From positions 1 through 64,000 of the forward strand of contig JANQQK010000039.1 of the NCBI GenBank assembly GCA_028289375.1: a stretch of 64,000 nucleotides of DNA, in the 5' to 3' direction. This DNA is from Phycisphaerae bacterium (GTDB lineage Bacteria; Planctomycetota; Phycisphaerae; UBA1845). Position numbers and translations under genes: made by a program. Below are positions 5,931-44,886 of this stretch, piece after piece. The stretch's first letter is position 1. Every line of letters begins with the position of its first letter. The notes beneath the pieces were generated by a model. That model did not search any database. It saw only the letters and a program-made list of their open reading frames with translations, and had not been told where the DNA came from.

Positions 5931-7706
5931 TCAGTGACCGATACGGGCGGACGCATTGGCCGTCCCAAGGTCGGAAACCTGCCGGGGAAGATCGAATTCC
6001 AGAAGGGCAAATCGTCCGTTGAACCACGTCGACCGCGCTCGCAATGCCGACAAGTCCCGCTGCATCCGCGTCGTCGGCGTTCCCTCGGGCGTGTGCTTTT
6101 CCATATCAATCAGAATCCACCGGACATTCCGCTCTCGGCAGAATCGCGACAACTCCGACAGGCGTGTCTCCTGACCGTACAACTCGCGGTAGCGCTCGTA
6201 CCACCCGCGCGCCGCCTCCGCGTCAAACGGAAAACACTTCCAGTCAAAATATGGAATGCGATGCGCGTGCGCGCGGAAACCCCGAATCGTCGGCGTCACC
6301 AAGACCATGTCATCCGGCCCCACGACGTCGTCCACCCGCGCGAACGCCTCGGCCATCGACGCCTCCAGTTCGTTCCACCGTGTCGTCGTCATCCGCTCCG
6401 TCACCGACAACGGCCCCCCGAACATCAATAAACCAATGACCGCTGCCACCACACCGGCCATCGATGCCCCTCGTCCTCCCCGCCCTTTCGACGCAACACA
6501 GCCCAACACAAGCACGACGCATAACATCGCTGCAAACTGCCACACCACCGACTGCCAACCCGGCAGCACGCACCACAGCAAGGCAGCCGTCACGAGCGTC
6601 ACAATTCCAAGAATCGTCCGCACTACCGACTCGCGAACGAACGACTCCTGCGATGTGACGATGTCGGTGAGCACAGTCGCCGCCCCGATCGTGCCAATGA
6701 TGTTGAAGTACACCAGGCTGCGATACGGATACGAGACCGCCGCCAGTTTCACACGAATCCATTCAATGCCCACGAATCCGCCGATCGCAATCACCGACAA
6801 AGTCGACAACACCAGGAGCAGCTGCCGACCACGCCGTCGCTGCATGTCCGTCAGTCCGAACATCAACCATCCAACCGCCGACAACCCCAGACCCAGCGTC
6901 AGGATCAGCCGTGCCACACGATTGAACGACCATGTCGAAATGACCGTGTGATGCGGATGCCGCGTCAAACAGAATATCTCGACAAACTCACGTCCACCCA
7001 TCCCTTCGGAGGGATGCGTCATGCCATACCAGATCAGTGGCGTTGCACCGATCAGGTACGCCACGACAACGGGAAGCAACGCCCGAATCCGCCGGACAAC
7101 GCCCCCCTGCTCCCCTGCCACGATGTGCATCACGCAGATGGCCAGCAACGTGTGCGCCGCCACAATCGGATGAAACAACGCACCCACCAACATCGCCACC
7201 GACGCCCACGACATCCGCCCAAGCATGACCAACAAAACACCAACAAAACAGCAAGGCCACGACAGCCCAACCGGCGTCCCGAATGGCGGCAGAAAGTGGT
7301 AGCCGCTCGCCGACGCCAATGCGCGCTCCCCCAGTAGGAGCATCAGAAATACAAACACACCCCGCGACGCACCGCCGATGACACGACACCCGAACATCAT
7401 CGCCATCATCCCGGCCACCACCGACACAACGCGTACCGCGTACATCGCCGATTCAACACCGACCCAACGCGCCATCGACGCCGTCAGGTGCACAAACACA
7501 ACGTGCTGCGAACCACTGTTGAGAAACGGATCGTTGGGCAGGTAGGTTGGATCAAGCAACCGCTGAATGTGCGGCAGCAGGACCTCGTGATCGGACAGGC
7601 CGAACTCGGTCGGATAGCGGACGATCCAGAAAGATGACGCGACCAGGACGAGCAGAATGCCCGTCAGGTAGGATCGCCAATCCCGCGCTGCTTTCTGGTC
7701 GTTCAT
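5931..7706 (-). CDS. Polytopic membrane protein, function unknown
   Basis: About 590 residues with roughly ten hydrophobic segments, the first at residues 13-30. A soluble tail of about 170 residues (GPDDMVLVTPTIRGFRAH, then ERNVRWILIDMEKHTP) follows. Multi-TM N-terminus plus extracytoplasmic C-terminal domain resembles lipid-linked glycosyltransferases or DUF6798-like proteins, but no catalytic DxD or ExD motif was certain. ATG 7706 is preferred because it puts a short basic/acidic stretch directly before TM1. An upstream ATG at 7772 adds 22 residues without an obvious ribosome site. It lies 23 nt before the MazG-like gene in the same direction. Confidence 0.7.
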   Translation of the reverse strand: MNDQKAARDWRSYLTGILLVLVASSFWIVRYPTEFGLSDHEVLLPHIQRLLDPTYLPNDPFLNSGSQHVVFVHLTASMARWVGVESAMYAVRVVSVVAGMMAMMFGCRVIGGASRGVFVFLMLLLGERALASASGYHFLPPFGTPVGLSWPCCFVGVLLVMLGRMSWASVAMLVGALFHPIVAAHTLLAICVMHIVAGEQGGVVRRIRALLPVVVAYLIGATPLIWYGMTHPSEGMGGREFVEIFCLTRHPHHTVISTWSFNRVARLILTLGLGLSAVGWLMFGLTDMQRRRGRQLLLVLSTLSVIAIGGFVGIEWIRVKLAAVSYPYRSLVYFNIIGTIGAATVLTDIVTSQESFVRESVVRTILGIVTLVTAALLWCVLPGWQSVVWQFAAMLCVVLVLGCVASKGRGGRGASMAGVVAAVIGLLMFGGPLSVTERMTTTRWNELEASMAEAFARVDDVVGPDDMVLVTPTIRGFRAHAHRIPYFDWKCFPFDAEAARGWYERYRELYGQETRLSELSRFCRERNVRWILIDMEKHTPEGTPTTRMQRDLSALRARSTWFNGRFALLEFDLPRQVSDLGTANASARIGH

Positions 7707-7829
7707 TCCGTCGTCCGGCGGCCATGGGTGCGACGTGTCGGGCATCCAAGCGAACCGACGCACCACACCCATTGATTATCGGACAGAAGGACTGCGCACT
7801 TCGTGATGAACCACGATCCGGCAACGCGG

Positions 7830-9188
7830 TCAGGCGCCACCAAGACCAAACGCATCGTGAATCGCGCGAACCGCCCCCGGTCCGTCATCGCCCTTCACGA
7901 CCAGGCACACGCTCAGCTCGCTGGAACCCTGGGCGATCGCCTCAATGTTAATAGATGCATCCGACAAAGCGCCAAAAATTCGTGCAGCCACGCCGACCGA
8001 ACCGCGCATTCCCGAACCCACCGCCGCGACAACCGCCACGTGCTCATCCACCTCGACCCGCTTGGCCGCGTTCGTCCGCAGCAACTGCCCCTCAAGAACC
8101 GCACGGGCACGCGGAAGCTGGGACTCTGCGACAACCAGGGAGATCCCGGCTTCACTGACAGTCTGAGAAATCATTTGTACGTTGACTTCCGCCTCCGCAA
8201 GCGCCGCGAACACCTTCGCCGCCGTCCCCGGGCGACCGACCATCGCCGCACCCGCCACATTGATCAACGCCACGTTCTTCAGCAGCAAAACCGAGCGCAT
8301 GGTGGCCGTGGTCGGCGCGGTCTCGGTAATCAGCGTACCGGGGCAATCGGTGTTGAACGAACTCCGCACGCGAACCGGAATCTTGTGCTCAGCCGACGGC
8401 TCCAACGCCCGCGGATGCATCGACTTGGCCCCGAACTGGCCCATCTCGATCGACTCGGCGAACGTGATCTGATCCAACAGCTGAGCACCCGGCACATTGC
8501 GCGGATCGGCTGTCATTAACCCGTCCACGTCGCTGCAGATCCAGATCTCATCCGCCTTGAGCGCCGCCCCCAGAAGCGTGGCTGTGTAGTCCGACCCGCC
8601 GCGACCGATCGTCGAGATCACCCCATGCTGCGTCGCTCCCAGAAATCCCGTCACCACGATGCGTTCACCGTTCGCCATCAGCGGTTCCAGATTCTCATGA
8701 ATCTGGTACAGCGACAGGTTCATCAGCGGCTCGGCCTCACCATGTTGATCGTTCGTGACGATGCCGACCTCCTGCCCGGTCATCGCGCGACCGTCGAGCG
8801 CTGCCGCCGTCAGAATGGCGGACAATTGCTCACCATGCGACACAACCGCGTCACGCGACCGCGGCGTCAACTCACCCACCGCAACGATACCCGCGACAAG
8901 CGTCTCGAGATTCGCCAGCAGCGGCTCGACCTTCTCCATCACGCCAAGCTCAGCCGCAGCCTCCTCATGACGACGTCGAATTTCGGCCAACAGCGTGTAC
9001 TTCACTGACCGGTTGCCCGACCCCGCCGCCTCCGCCAATTCCAGAAGCAGGTCCGTCACACCACCCATTGCCGACACGACCGTGACAACCTGGTGCTTTT
9101 CCTGTTGGGCACGGACGACGTCGGCACATCGACGAATCTTCTCGGCATCGGCCACCGACGAACCACCGAACTTCATGATGATCTTCAC
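7830..9188 (-). CDS. lysC: Aspartate kinase
   Basis: Phosphorylates aspartate, the first step to lysine, threonine and methionine. The kinase domain (1-270) begins KFGGSSVAD (residues 6-14), and later shows GRGGSDYTA and FGAKSMHPRA. Two ACT domains fill residues about 290-450, so feedback inhibition by lysine and/or threonine is likely. The start is GTG 9188, which overlaps the hom stop in GTGA and has GGGGGAAG just upstream; ATG 9176 is an alternative. It is the last gene of thrB-thrC-hom-lysC. This is a single-function kinase of about 452 residues, not fused to homoserine dehydrogenase. Confidence 0.96.
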   Translation of the reverse strand: MKIIMKFGGSSVADAEKIRRCADVVRAQQEKHQVVTVVSAMGGVTDLLLELAEAAGSGNRSVKYTLLAEIRRRHEEAAAELGVMEKVEPLLANLETLVAGIVAVGELTPRSRDAVVSHGEQLSAILTAAALDGRAMTGQEVGIVTNDQHGEAEPLMNLSLYQIHENLEPLMANGERIVVTGFLGATQHGVISTIGRGGSDYTATLLGAALKADEIWICSDVDGLMTADPRNVPGAQLLDQITFAESIEMGQFGAKSMHPRALEPSAEHKIPVRVRSSFNTDCPGTLITETAPTTATMRSVLLLKNVALINVAGAAMVGRPGTAAKVFAALAEAEVNVQMISQTVSEAGISLVVAESQLPRARAVLEGQLLRTNAAKRVEVDEHVAVVAAVGSGMRGSVGVAARIFGALSDASINIEAIAQGSSELSVCLVVKGDDGPGAVRAIHDAFGLGGA

Positions 9189-17483: not shown

Positions 17484-19607
17484 TTACTCAGGTCGAACCG
17501 GCGACGACTCCGGAACCTGCACGGCTTCGGCGGCATCTCGGAGGATGGCAGCCACGGTATCACCCGGTGCAAGACCGGCGGCCCGATCCATCGCCTGCGA
17601 CGCTCCCACCGGATCACCACTCGAGTAGAGGATGTACCCAAGAACAAGCCACGCGTCGGCATCGGTCGGGTTGGCCGCGACGTGCAAGCGAAGGGTCTGT
17701 ACGTGTGCGATGAGGTCACCGTCATTGCCATACATCCGTTGTACGTCGATCGGACGGTCGATCACATCCGGCACCAACGAAAGCCCGCGCCGAATGGCGC
17801 CGGCAGCCGCGGAGTAGTTCTCCTGCGAGAACAGTGCCAACGCGTACGACAACTCACCGAATCCATTCTGCGGTGCATCGAGCACCGAGTACGAAAACAG
17901 GCGACGTGCCCCGTCATAGTCACCGTTGCGGAATGCCTCGACGCCTTCGGCAAGGTAGCCATTGTTGACCGGAATGCGCTCCTGCGGTGCAACCGTGACC
18001 GGCGCGGTTGGCCCGACAAACGCGTCGTTCGGATTGGTTGACACGACATTGCCATTCGTCGGCGCAACCGTTCCCGCAGCCTGCACACCGACATTGGGCA
18101 ATACCACATCAGCCCCGTCCACGTAGACTTCCACGGGCTGCTCGACAACAACGGTCGTTGGCCACGGATCGACAACCCAGACCGGCGAGAATCCAACCGA
18201 CGTGTATCGGTAGGGGAATCGATGGAAGTAGCAGTCAAACGCGCTGGCGTATCCGTACGGGTAGTACAGGCCATCATAGAAATGACCATAGTACGCAGCC
18301 CCGCAGCCGATCCGACCACGACCAAATCCGAACCCGACACCGCCATAAACTCCGCCTCCGATGAAACCGCCCCCGAATCCGCCATAGAAGCGGTTGTCGA
18401 AGCGATCGAATTCGCGGCGGTGGTAGAAGGCTGTCAGTGATCCATCACCGATGTGCAGCCCCGCCTGCAGCGAACTGTTGTGGTCGAAATTGGAGTAGCC
18501 GAGATTGATGTTGCCTGCTCGGCCTCGTCCACGATATCCGTTGAACCGAGGCGTATCAAAGCGTGAGCCGGCGTTGAATCCGCGTGAGTTGCCGACATAC
18601 GCCTTCCGCTCCGGAATGTTCCGTGACACGCGCGAACGCGATGCGATGCTCGTCGCCGCCGGTCCGACCAAAGGCCTCGCCAAGTCTGCAACGCCGCCAC
18701 GGTTGCGGCTGAACGTCCGCGTGGTGTTGCCCGATGTCCCGCGAACGCCACGCGTTGTCGGTCCGCCACGCCTTTGTGCGGAACGCGGCACGACGTTGCT
18801 GTTTGTCACCGGGGCGCGGCGAGTCGCACGATTGCTGTTGAAAACTGTGTCGGTCGAACGTCGGCCCGTGACCGGCGATCGGGTGGCCCGCGAGGACGTC
18901 CGCGGCACGACGGATGATCGCGAGGTCCTCGAACGCGTATCGGGGGCAACATTCGAGCGTGTGCCGCGCGACGGGGTCAACGTGTTCGGTGCCCTGCCCG
19001 TGCGACTGAACGAACGTGTGTTGGTTGAGAAATCCCTTCCGCGCGTCGACGGCGTGACCGACTGCCGCGTCGTGCGACTGCTGCTGCGCGGCGAAGTCGA
19101 GCGTGTGGATCGTGACGTTCGTGGCGTTGTCACCGGCGAGCGCGATGTCCGCGATGACGGCGAACGCATGGTGCCAGACCGTGACGTCGATCGGCGTGTG
19201 TTGACCGGAGACCGCGTTGTTGTCCGCGGACTCGATGAACTACGGCGTGAACGCGTGGCCGAGCGCGACGAACCTGCGCGTGAACGCGATGCCCGCGATC
19301 GGGACGTCGATCTCGGAACCGCACTGCGTGAACGGGATGCGCTGGACCGCGACGCCCGGGAGCGCGACGTTCGGGACCGTGGTGCCGACCGAGCAGATGA
19401 CCGCGAACTGCGTGAGCGCGACGCCGAGCGGGCCGAATGATTGGTCGTCCGCGAACGCGATGCGCTGGAACGACTCCGCATCGACGACGACCCGCGGGAC
19501 GCCCGGGAGCGACTCTGCGAGAACACTTCGGGCGACGCGGTCAACGCAATCAGTGCCGACAGCATGGCCACACTCCACCGTTTGGCGCGAAGGTTCGTGT
19601 TCATCAT
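17484..19607 (-). CDS. Secreted Arg/Ser-rich protein with TPR C-terminus
   Basis: 707 residues in four parts. Residues 1-30 form a signal peptide (RAKRWSVAMLSALIALTA) with a cleavage-like site before SQS. Residues about 31-320 are a low-complexity RS tract dominated by Arg, Ser and Thr. Residues about 365-470 are Gly/aromatic-rich (FYGGFGGGFIGGG, YYPYGYAS). Residues about 549-707 hold TPR-like repeats (AFRNGDYDGARRLF, DAWLVLGYILYSSGDPVGAS). AGGAG precedes the tandem ATGs at 19607/19604. A promoter lies upstream. Function is unknown; a cell-envelope or nucleic-acid/polyanion-binding scaffold is possible. It ends 25 nt from the convergent MATE gene. Confidence 0.85.
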   Translation of the reverse strand: MMNTNLRAKRWSVAMLSALIALTASPEVFSQSRSRASRGSSSMRSRSSASRSRTTNHSARSASRSRSSRSSARSAPRSRTSRSRASRSSASRSRSAVPRSTSRSRASRSRAGSSRSATRSRRSSSSPRTTTRSPVNTRRSTSRSGTMRSPSSRTSRSPVTTPRTSRSTRSTSPRSSSRTTRQSVTPSTRGRDFSTNTRSFSRTGRAPNTLTPSRGTRSNVAPDTRSRTSRSSVVPRTSSRATRSPVTGRRSTDTVFNSNRATRRAPVTNSNVVPRSAQRRGGPTTRGVRGTSGNTTRTFSRNRGGVADLARPLVGPAATSIASRSRVSRNIPERKAYVGNSRGFNAGSRFDTPRFNGYRGRGRAGNINLGYSNFDHNSSLQAGLHIGDGSLTAFYHRREFDRFDNRFYGGFGGGFIGGGVYGGVGFGFGRGRIGCGAAYYGHFYDGLYYPYGYASAFDCYFHRFPYRYTSVGFSPVWVVDPWPTTVVVEQPVEVYVDGADVVLPNVGVQAAGTVAPTNGNVVSTNPNDAFVGPTAPVTVAPQERIPVNNGYLAEGVEAFRNGDYDGARRLFSYSVLDAPQNGFGELSYALALFSQENYSAAAGAIRRGLSLVPDVIDRPIDVQRMYGNDGDLIAHVQTLRLHVAANPTDADAWLVLGYILYSSGDPVGASQAMDRAAGLAPGDTVAAILRDAAEAVQVPESSPVRPE

Positions 19608-19681: not shown

Positions 19682-19710
19682 ATAATAGCACCTGAATGCT
19701 AAATCGGCAA
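19682..19710 (-). promoter_or_regulatory. Promoter of the RS-rich gene
   Basis: TTGCCG (19710-19705), a 17-bp spacer and TATTAT (19687-19682) lie in an AT-rich patch about 75 bp before the ATG. Confidence 0.6.
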
Positions 19711-19788: not shown

Positions 19789-20484
19789 TCAGGAAAGTTT
19801 GCTGAGCAGCGCCGGAATCTCATCAAGCCGGCTGATCTGGTAGTCCGGATGGGCCTTCCCGACGTCATGGATGCGGCGGTCGCGGCAGATCCACGCGGCC
19901 TGGATGCCGAAATTCTGAGCGCCCTCGATGTCACTGTGCAGCGAATCGCCGACGTGCAGGACCTCGGCTGGCTGGACGTTCATCATCTCGCACGCCTTGG
20001 CGAAAATGGCTGGCTCGGGCTTGTAGCAACGGGCGTCCTCGCTGGAGAGGATCGCGTCGAAACGCAAGCTGTGCTTCTCGATGGCGGCCAACAGATGGTC
20101 GGTGTCGGCATTCGAGACGCAGCAGATCGGCAGATCGATCGAGGCGATGGCGGCAGCGGCTTCGGTGTGCAAATGCGGATCACACCAGTAGGCGTACAGG
20201 CGGTCTGCGTAGGGATTCGGATCGACATCGCCGACGAGGGGCTTGAGCGTTTCGATCAGGCTTTCACACTCGCATTCATGAAGCGTTTTGAATCCGTCGT
20301 GGTTGCAGGTCTCGATCATCCTGAAGAAGCGATTGCCCCACGCGACGGTCAACTCGGCAGCGGACATGTCCAGCTTGAAGTCGGTGACCACTTGCTGGCA
20401 AACAGATTCGACGGCTTCCACATCGCCCGCAGCCACGGTGCCGTAGAAATCGAGAAACAAGGCTTTGAAGCGACGTTCGGACAC
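19789..20484 (-). CDS. HAD-superfamily hydrolase
   Basis: 231 residues with the four HAD motifs: LDFYGT (nucleophile Asp near residue 12), CVSNAD (motif II), YKPEPAIF (motif III Lys) and HVGDSLHSDIEGA (motif IV). The cap is a helical insert between motifs I and II. Such enzymes are phosphatases or dehalogenases; the substrate cannot be read. It starts with GTG 20484, preceded by GGAAGG, and is the last gene of the ribosomal run, 42 nt after the HIT gene. Confidence 0.9.
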   Translation of the reverse strand: MSERRFKALFLDFYGTVAAGDVEAVESVCQQVVTDFKLDMSAAELTVAWGNRFFRMIETCNHDGFKTLHECECESLIETLKPLVGDVDPNPYADRLYAYWCDPHLHTEAAAAIASIDLPICCVSNADTDHLLAAIEKHSLRFDAILSSEDARCYKPEPAIFAKACEMMNVQPAEVLHVGDSLHSDIEGAQNFGIQAAWICRDRRIHDVGKAHPDYQISRLDEIPALLSKLS

Positions 20485-39883: not shown

Positions 39884-44338
<4,455 letters not shown>

Positions 44339-44388
44339 CTGGTTCAATCCTTCTTCCTGCGTTGGTTTCGCTGCCTGCTCAACGCGAT

Positions 44389-44886
44389 TTATTCAGCCGC
44401 CACGCTCATCGCCGCGGCGGATTCGGTCTGTGCCTGTGTCGCAACGTCCAACTTCATGGCCACGACACCACCCATTTTCTTAAAGCCCATCTCCTCGCAG
44501 AAGTCAGCCTCCGTGCCGTAACACAGCACGTGGATGTCTTCGACGCCGAATGCCCGAAGGGCTTCGATCACGCGACGGGCCATCTCATGCGCAATGCCGT
44601 CACTGTCATGCTCAATGCGCCCCTCGACGCGCGTCACGGCAGCCGGTCCCTGAAACGCCGGATCGAGCTTGCACTCGGCCAACTGGCCTCGCACACCGTC
44701 GGTCGTCCCGCGGGCGATGCCGATCAACCGTCCATCCTTCCGCGCGGTGACAAAGCAGCGACTCTGCTCAATCATGCGCGCAAGCTTTTCCCGCGACTCG
44801 GGTCTGTGGTGATGCTGCTGGTCGTAAAAGGCAGCCAACTCATCCACTTCCACGGATTCAACCGTTTCATACATGACTTCAGACAC
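44389..44886 (-). CDS. GNAT-like N-acetyltransferase embedded between rpoB and rpoC
   Basis: 165 residues. The pattern [23 protein letters not shown] and a C-terminal [17 protein letters not shown] fits the GNAT fold (strand 4, a weak motif A and the closing beta-alpha-beta). The classical acetyl-CoA loop RxxGxG is not seen at the motif A position, so activity is uncertain. GTG 44886 follows a strong AAGGAGG. It is 34 nt after rpoB and 50 nt before rpoC, in the same direction, so it is transcribed with the polymerase genes. Substrate is unknown. Confidence 0.7.

Follow-up and report, generated by a model that had tools for sequence, protein, structure and literature searches.

The gene at positions 17484-19607 of the window, i.e. 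the whole stretch of 64,000 nucleotides from a Phycisphaerae bacterium (contig JANQQK010000039.1) that was analyzed, encodes a putative scaffold protein with a TPR domain and an unusual arm whose composition is conserved. Based on sequence comparisons, the layout that bears this arm is real and conserved, since it recurs widely across the phylum. The protein is tentatively interpreted, with somewhat less than even confidence, as an exported envelope or extracellular scaffold of a planctomycete-wide kind, in which the Arg-rich arm would bind polyanions and/or aromatic stretches and the TPR domain would dock a partner. Its 707 residues are arranged from the N- to the C-terminus as signal peptide, basic tract, Gly/Tyr/Phe-rich middle and acidic TPR end. 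The coordinates in the initial annotation were correct; the strand, which it had not given, is minus. The following features were assigned:

17484..19607, minus strand: whole gene, 707 codons plus stop, with the ATG at 19607 and the stop ending at 17484
19518..19607, minus strand: Sec-type signal peptide, residues 1-30, with predicted cleavage between VFS and QSRSR (reading of the sequence)
18648..19517, minus strand: Arg/Ser/Thr-rich tract, residues 31-320, presumed disordered (composition and frame test)
17988..18647, minus strand: Gly/Tyr/Phe-rich middle, residues 321-540, without a confident fold (composition, low pLDDT)
17526..17960, minus strand: acidic TPR domain, residues ~550-694 (Pfam, model helices, TPR-like PDB matches)
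19682..19710, minus strand: promoter-like site upstream of the gene, TTGCCG, 17 nt, TATTAT with extended -10 (weak evidence)
19789..20484, minus strand: HAD-family hydrolase, syntenic upstream neighbor (Pfam and gene order in relatives)

In the upstream region two promoter-like sites were seen versus 0.8 expected by chance. The second ATG at 19604 matches the start of the same-genus orthologue better than 19607 in the alignment and may be the true start. Secretion, as claimed initially, is predicted from the Sec-type signal peptide. Its n-h-c layout is common to all 15 relatives examined, most of which also possess an AxA-like site with Q or G as the next residue. The mature protein has a computed pI of 11.65. 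The tract behind the signal peptide had been described as dominated by Arg, Ser and Thr, and the residue counts bear this out: residues 32-320 comprise 79 Ser, 69 Arg, 43 Thr, 22 Ala, 19 Pro and 4 Asp, with neither Lys nor Glu. Ser accounts for 27%, Arg for 24%, Thr for 15% and acidic residues for about 1% of the ~290-residue tract, which has a net charge of +65; residues 31-330 have a pI of 12.0 and a net charge of +68. Arg and Ser together make up 51% of the first 290 mature residues. RS and SR dipeptides occur 66 times in the first 250 mature residues versus 38.3 +/- 5.0 in composition-preserving shuffles.

The initial annotation had raised the possibilities that the tract is a frame artefact or that it is absent in close homologues. 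Codon alignment of the tract with the same-genus orthologue gave mismatches of 0.49/0.28/0.65 at the three codon positions, and a frame-blind nucleotide alignment gave 0.50/0.30/0.59, with a gap length divisible by 3 in eight of the ten tract gaps. This codon-position pattern and the gap lengths indicate that the tract is in its true reading frame, and rule out a frame artefact as its origin. The signal peptide and the TPR domain share this frame, and the tract is present in close relatives. A long DNA repeat expansion was not found: only short arrays of 9 to 15 bases and no long tandem array were detected in the tract. With the tract as query, no second match emerged in the genome at E <= 1, a search in which composition filters may hide some matches. 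Antisense to the tract, a 311-codon open frame is located on the plus strand (18505-19440). Its translation is rich in Arg, Asp and Glu, as a mirror image of Ser/Arg codons would be, and the codon-position pattern favors the minus-strand frame. Elsewhere in the window, a 1008-residue open frame without Pfam match (41495-44518, plus strand) overlaps in antisense an open frame of 1487 residues on the minus strand (39884-44347) adjoining rpoB, and is probably a shadow frame. A mostly hydrophobic membrane protein of 613 residues with a match to DUF6798 is encoded at 5931-7772 on the minus strand; its gene sits in the strongest AT skew of the window (0.23-0.33 in 6001-8000), with a strongly negative GC skew.

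A Gly/aromatic-rich stretch and TPRs had been reported to follow the tract, and both are confirmed by composition and Pfam matches. Residues 331-540 harbor 17 Tyr, 18 Phe and 36 Gly, and modeling from the single sequence yielded pLDDT < 50 all along residues 340-545. Residues 541-707 have a pI of 4.5 and a net charge of -10. The profile search of the TPR part, which had been recommended, identified four Pfam TPR families above their curated cut-offs, namely TPR_16 with 40.4 bits (cut-off 32.7), TPR_2 with 34.1 (27), TPR_14 with 29.4 (23.5) and TPR_19 with 28.4 (25). DUF4192, weak and below cut-off, was the only non-TPR Pfam name in a scan with E up to 0.1, and no NCBIfam equivalog for the window protein was above cut-off. 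The single-sequence model is confident in the TPR region alone, where it is helical and TPR-like with pLDDT of ~80-94 over much of the region, and PDB fold comparison returned generic TPR matches only. In loci from other orders of the class (L084-L087, L093), a strongly conserved aromatic motif, e.g. YYPxYHRRFxFVSxGGYWPSxYRYRRYYWYGCHPYxWYG, is located ahead of the TPR part. By eye, conservation is higher in this motif than in the window protein's middle, and the motif may be a folded element.

Homologues were found in 36 of 40 related genomes when the C-terminal half was used as query, and a profile of the TPR part had a match in 71 of the 120 class genomes and in 76 of the 148 in the phylum sample. 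This phylum is probably Planctomycetota, as the genome contains a match to PSD1 (PF07587), which was seen in 0 of 14 control genomes. A basic low-complexity region and an aromatic-rich stretch precede the TPR part in 12 of the 17 class-level best-match loci, a set that takes in some loci from the family and order, and in 22 of the 29 best phylum-level loci. The layout criterion (a 150-residue window of net charge >= +12 and a 60-residue window with >= 15 Y/W/F/H) was fixed after the sequences had been seen, and these counts are therefore descriptive and no test. The window protein has all four layout parts in order, and its TPR domain is homologous to that of the phylum. An exported bacterial version with TPRs had been called unusual, a view that fails once the whole phylum is considered, as the layout is common there. 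This widespread layout of predicted exported proteins carries no curated Pfam or NCBIfam name beyond generic TPR.

The same HAD hydrolase gene adjoins in most genomes of the family and order with flanks read, and the PIN-TRAM, MATE, rplQ and rpoA genes are close by in several of these genomes. Outside the order, the HAD neighbor was not found beside a homologue in the loci whose flanks were examined; orthology in these genomes is thus based on layout and the match to the TPR profile rather than on gene order. The HAD hydrolase is a syntenic neighbor whose functional link is putative, and the HAD, PIN-TRAM and MATE neighbors suggest no pathway. TPR-domain proteins without a basic tract also occur (L082, L092, L095, L101, L105, L121). 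A 314-residue paralogue (L082:8735-9676, G000:C46), 34% identical in the TPR domain, lacks both the basic tract and the aromatic block, which indicates that the arm is no fixed companion of this TPR domain. Among the TPR controls from the same genome, 150-residue windows of net charge >= +20 were present in L136 (+42), L140 (+23), L133 (+22) and L153 (+21). On inspection these windows consist of Arg/His/Pro-type sequence without the kind of R/S tract seen in the window protein, and they look like out-of-frame or antisense readings.

A survey of tract length among relatives had been proposed, and both length and sequence proved to vary: the total length ranges from 426 to 890 aa, and the tract sequences have diverged beyond alignment. 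In each of the 16 proteins compared, which comprise the window protein plus 15 relatives, the net charge is +15 to +64 over the first 150-250 residues of the mature chain, whereas the C-terminal 170 residues are acidic (-3 to -16). Relatives freely swap Arg and Ser for Pro, Ala, Thr, Gly or Lys while the positive charge stays, so that charge and disorder, not RS dipeptides, look conserved. For comparison, drift was simulated by random substitutions at 62% GC with stops rejected, run to 47% identity. The endpoint contained 32% Arg plus Ser, 22% hydrophobic residues and 3.4% Asp/Glu, compared to 52%, 10% and 0.7% in the same-genus orthologue, whose tract is 47% identical. Four more diverged relatives (G004, G010, G017, G018), whose identity to the window protein is 25-32% even within the TPR part, still have 44-55% Arg plus Ser and 8-11% hydrophobic residues. 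Weaker tracts occur in G003, G008, G013 and G016, with 17-29% Arg plus Ser and a net charge of +13 to +34 over 290 residues, a span that overruns the tract in some of these shorter proteins. In most close relatives the tract has stayed rich in Arg and Ser and low in acidic and hydrophobic residues to a degree beyond that under simulated drift. As the simulation does not include slippage, this speaks for a composition-level constraint, short of proof. A tract that keeps its composition and not its sequence provides a natural test of whether extracytoplasmic selection can act on charge and disorder alone.

The interpretation as an exported scaffold is suggested by the positive tract and acidic C-terminal 170 residues of all 16 proteins, by a tract composition preserved more closely than under simulated drift, by the recurrence of the layout (12/17 and 22/29) together with a HAD gene order conserved within the family and order, and by the high pI of the mature protein. 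After predicted export through Sec, the disordered Arg-rich arm would bind negatively charged polymers in the envelope or matrix, such as LPS phosphates, acidic exopolysaccharide or extracellular DNA, and/or pair with Tyr/Phe stretches of other copies by cation-pi contacts. The TPR domain would dock a specific protein partner or, being acidic, the arm of another copy, and the outcome would be a multivalent, possibly condensed or adhesive layer. Judging from the sequence features, condensation and polyanion binding by the protein are plausible. The Arg arm contains no Tyr, no Trp and only 4 Phe, and the aromatic residues are located in a separate neutral block; thus, Arg-aromatic contacts need not dominate. 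The weak tracts of some relatives, such as G013 with a net charge of +15, and the lack of a tract in some TPR-domain proteins count against the scaffold, as does slippage, which is absent from the drift simulation and could also keep a tract R/S-rich. The envelopes of planctomycetes are unusual, and the inventory of their proteins is still in progress (PMC8567305); TPR or low complexity are nowhere mentioned in this subcellular proteome study. A further-reaching proposal, which we regard as quite unlikely, is a phylum-wide exported family that forms condensates or matrix, with the RS-like Arg arm and the Tyr/Gly block as extracytoplasmic stickers organized by the TPR docking domain. Such a family, if real, would be an extracellular equivalent in bacteria of the low-complexity scaffolds of eukaryotes.

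The main rival to the exported scaffold is a passive spacer. In this case function would lie in the TPR domain, and the tract would serve as a disordered linker or stalk, with a charge that has no ligand and a composition that reflects codon slippage and the requirement for a soluble, unfolded chain. The very variable length and sequence of the tract and the P/A/T/G that relatives put in place of Arg and Ser agree with such a spacer, and an excess of RS/SR dipeptides over shuffles is expected from slippage. However, neutral linkers are expected to drift, whereas net positive charge and near-zero Asp/Glu are kept in nearly all relatives, and the tract contains no recognizable DNA tandem array; overall, a spacer appears rather unlikely. 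An Arg content of 24% is out of keeping with a mucin-like stalk, in which Ser and Thr of the tract would receive O-glycans after export and keep the TPR domain off the surface, as typical stalks of this type do not resemble such a composition. No glycosyltransferase was seen adjoining the gene in the flanks examined. Although Ser and Thr constitute 42% of the tract and Ser/Thr/Pro-rich versions are common among relatives, we consider a stalk improbable. A functional eukaryote-like RS domain, phosphorylated by an SRPK-like kinase and with a role in RNA metabolism, would fit the composition and RS/SR dipeptide density of the tract, but is scarcely credible given the predicted Sec export, the lack of an RRM and of a long RS run, and the conservation of charge rather than RS dipeptides in relatives.

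Eukaryotic SR proteins share with the window protein a long, strongly basic and presumably disordered Arg/Ser-rich tract. SR proteins possess an RS region of >= 50 residues with > 40% RS content, and in the best 50-residue window of the protein described here 72% of the residues belong to RS/SR dipeptides. Unlike SR proteins, it harbors a signal peptide, an N-terminal tract and a TPR end, and no RRM was detected in a Pfam scan with E up to 0.1. Its longest alternating run is SRSRS, which differs from the long RS repeats of the SR family. The absent RRM, the short RS run and the predicted Sec export rule out membership in this family. The close resemblance to SR splicing-factor domains that had been claimed thus stands for composition and not otherwise, as charge, rather than RS dipeptides, is kept among the relatives; judged by sequence, what the protein shares with human splicing factors is limited to composition.

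The exported TPR scaffolds PrsT, MamA, BamD and PilW have the TPR domain in common with the window protein. NCBIfam models of the MamA, PrsT, PilW and BamD types gave weak matches to the window protein or its relatives, all far below the cut-offs. To our knowledge, no exported TPR scaffold protein combines this domain with an Arg/Ser arm of ~300 residues and an aromatic/Gly block. Searches of the open-licence literature turned up neither an exported RS-like tract in bacteria nor this protein family, which is weak evidence of absence. A secreted tick protein rich in Arg, aromatic residues and Gly assembles into adhesive condensates by means of cation-pi contacts between Arg and aromatic residues (PMC11794139). 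It shares with the window protein secretion, which is predicted here, as well as disorder and the Arg, aromatic and Gly composition. The two are unrelated in sequence and origin, and Arg and aromatic residues are periodic in the tick protein, whereas they form separate blocks in the window protein. The tick adhesive may thus serve as an analogy for an exported scaffold and is no relative of it.
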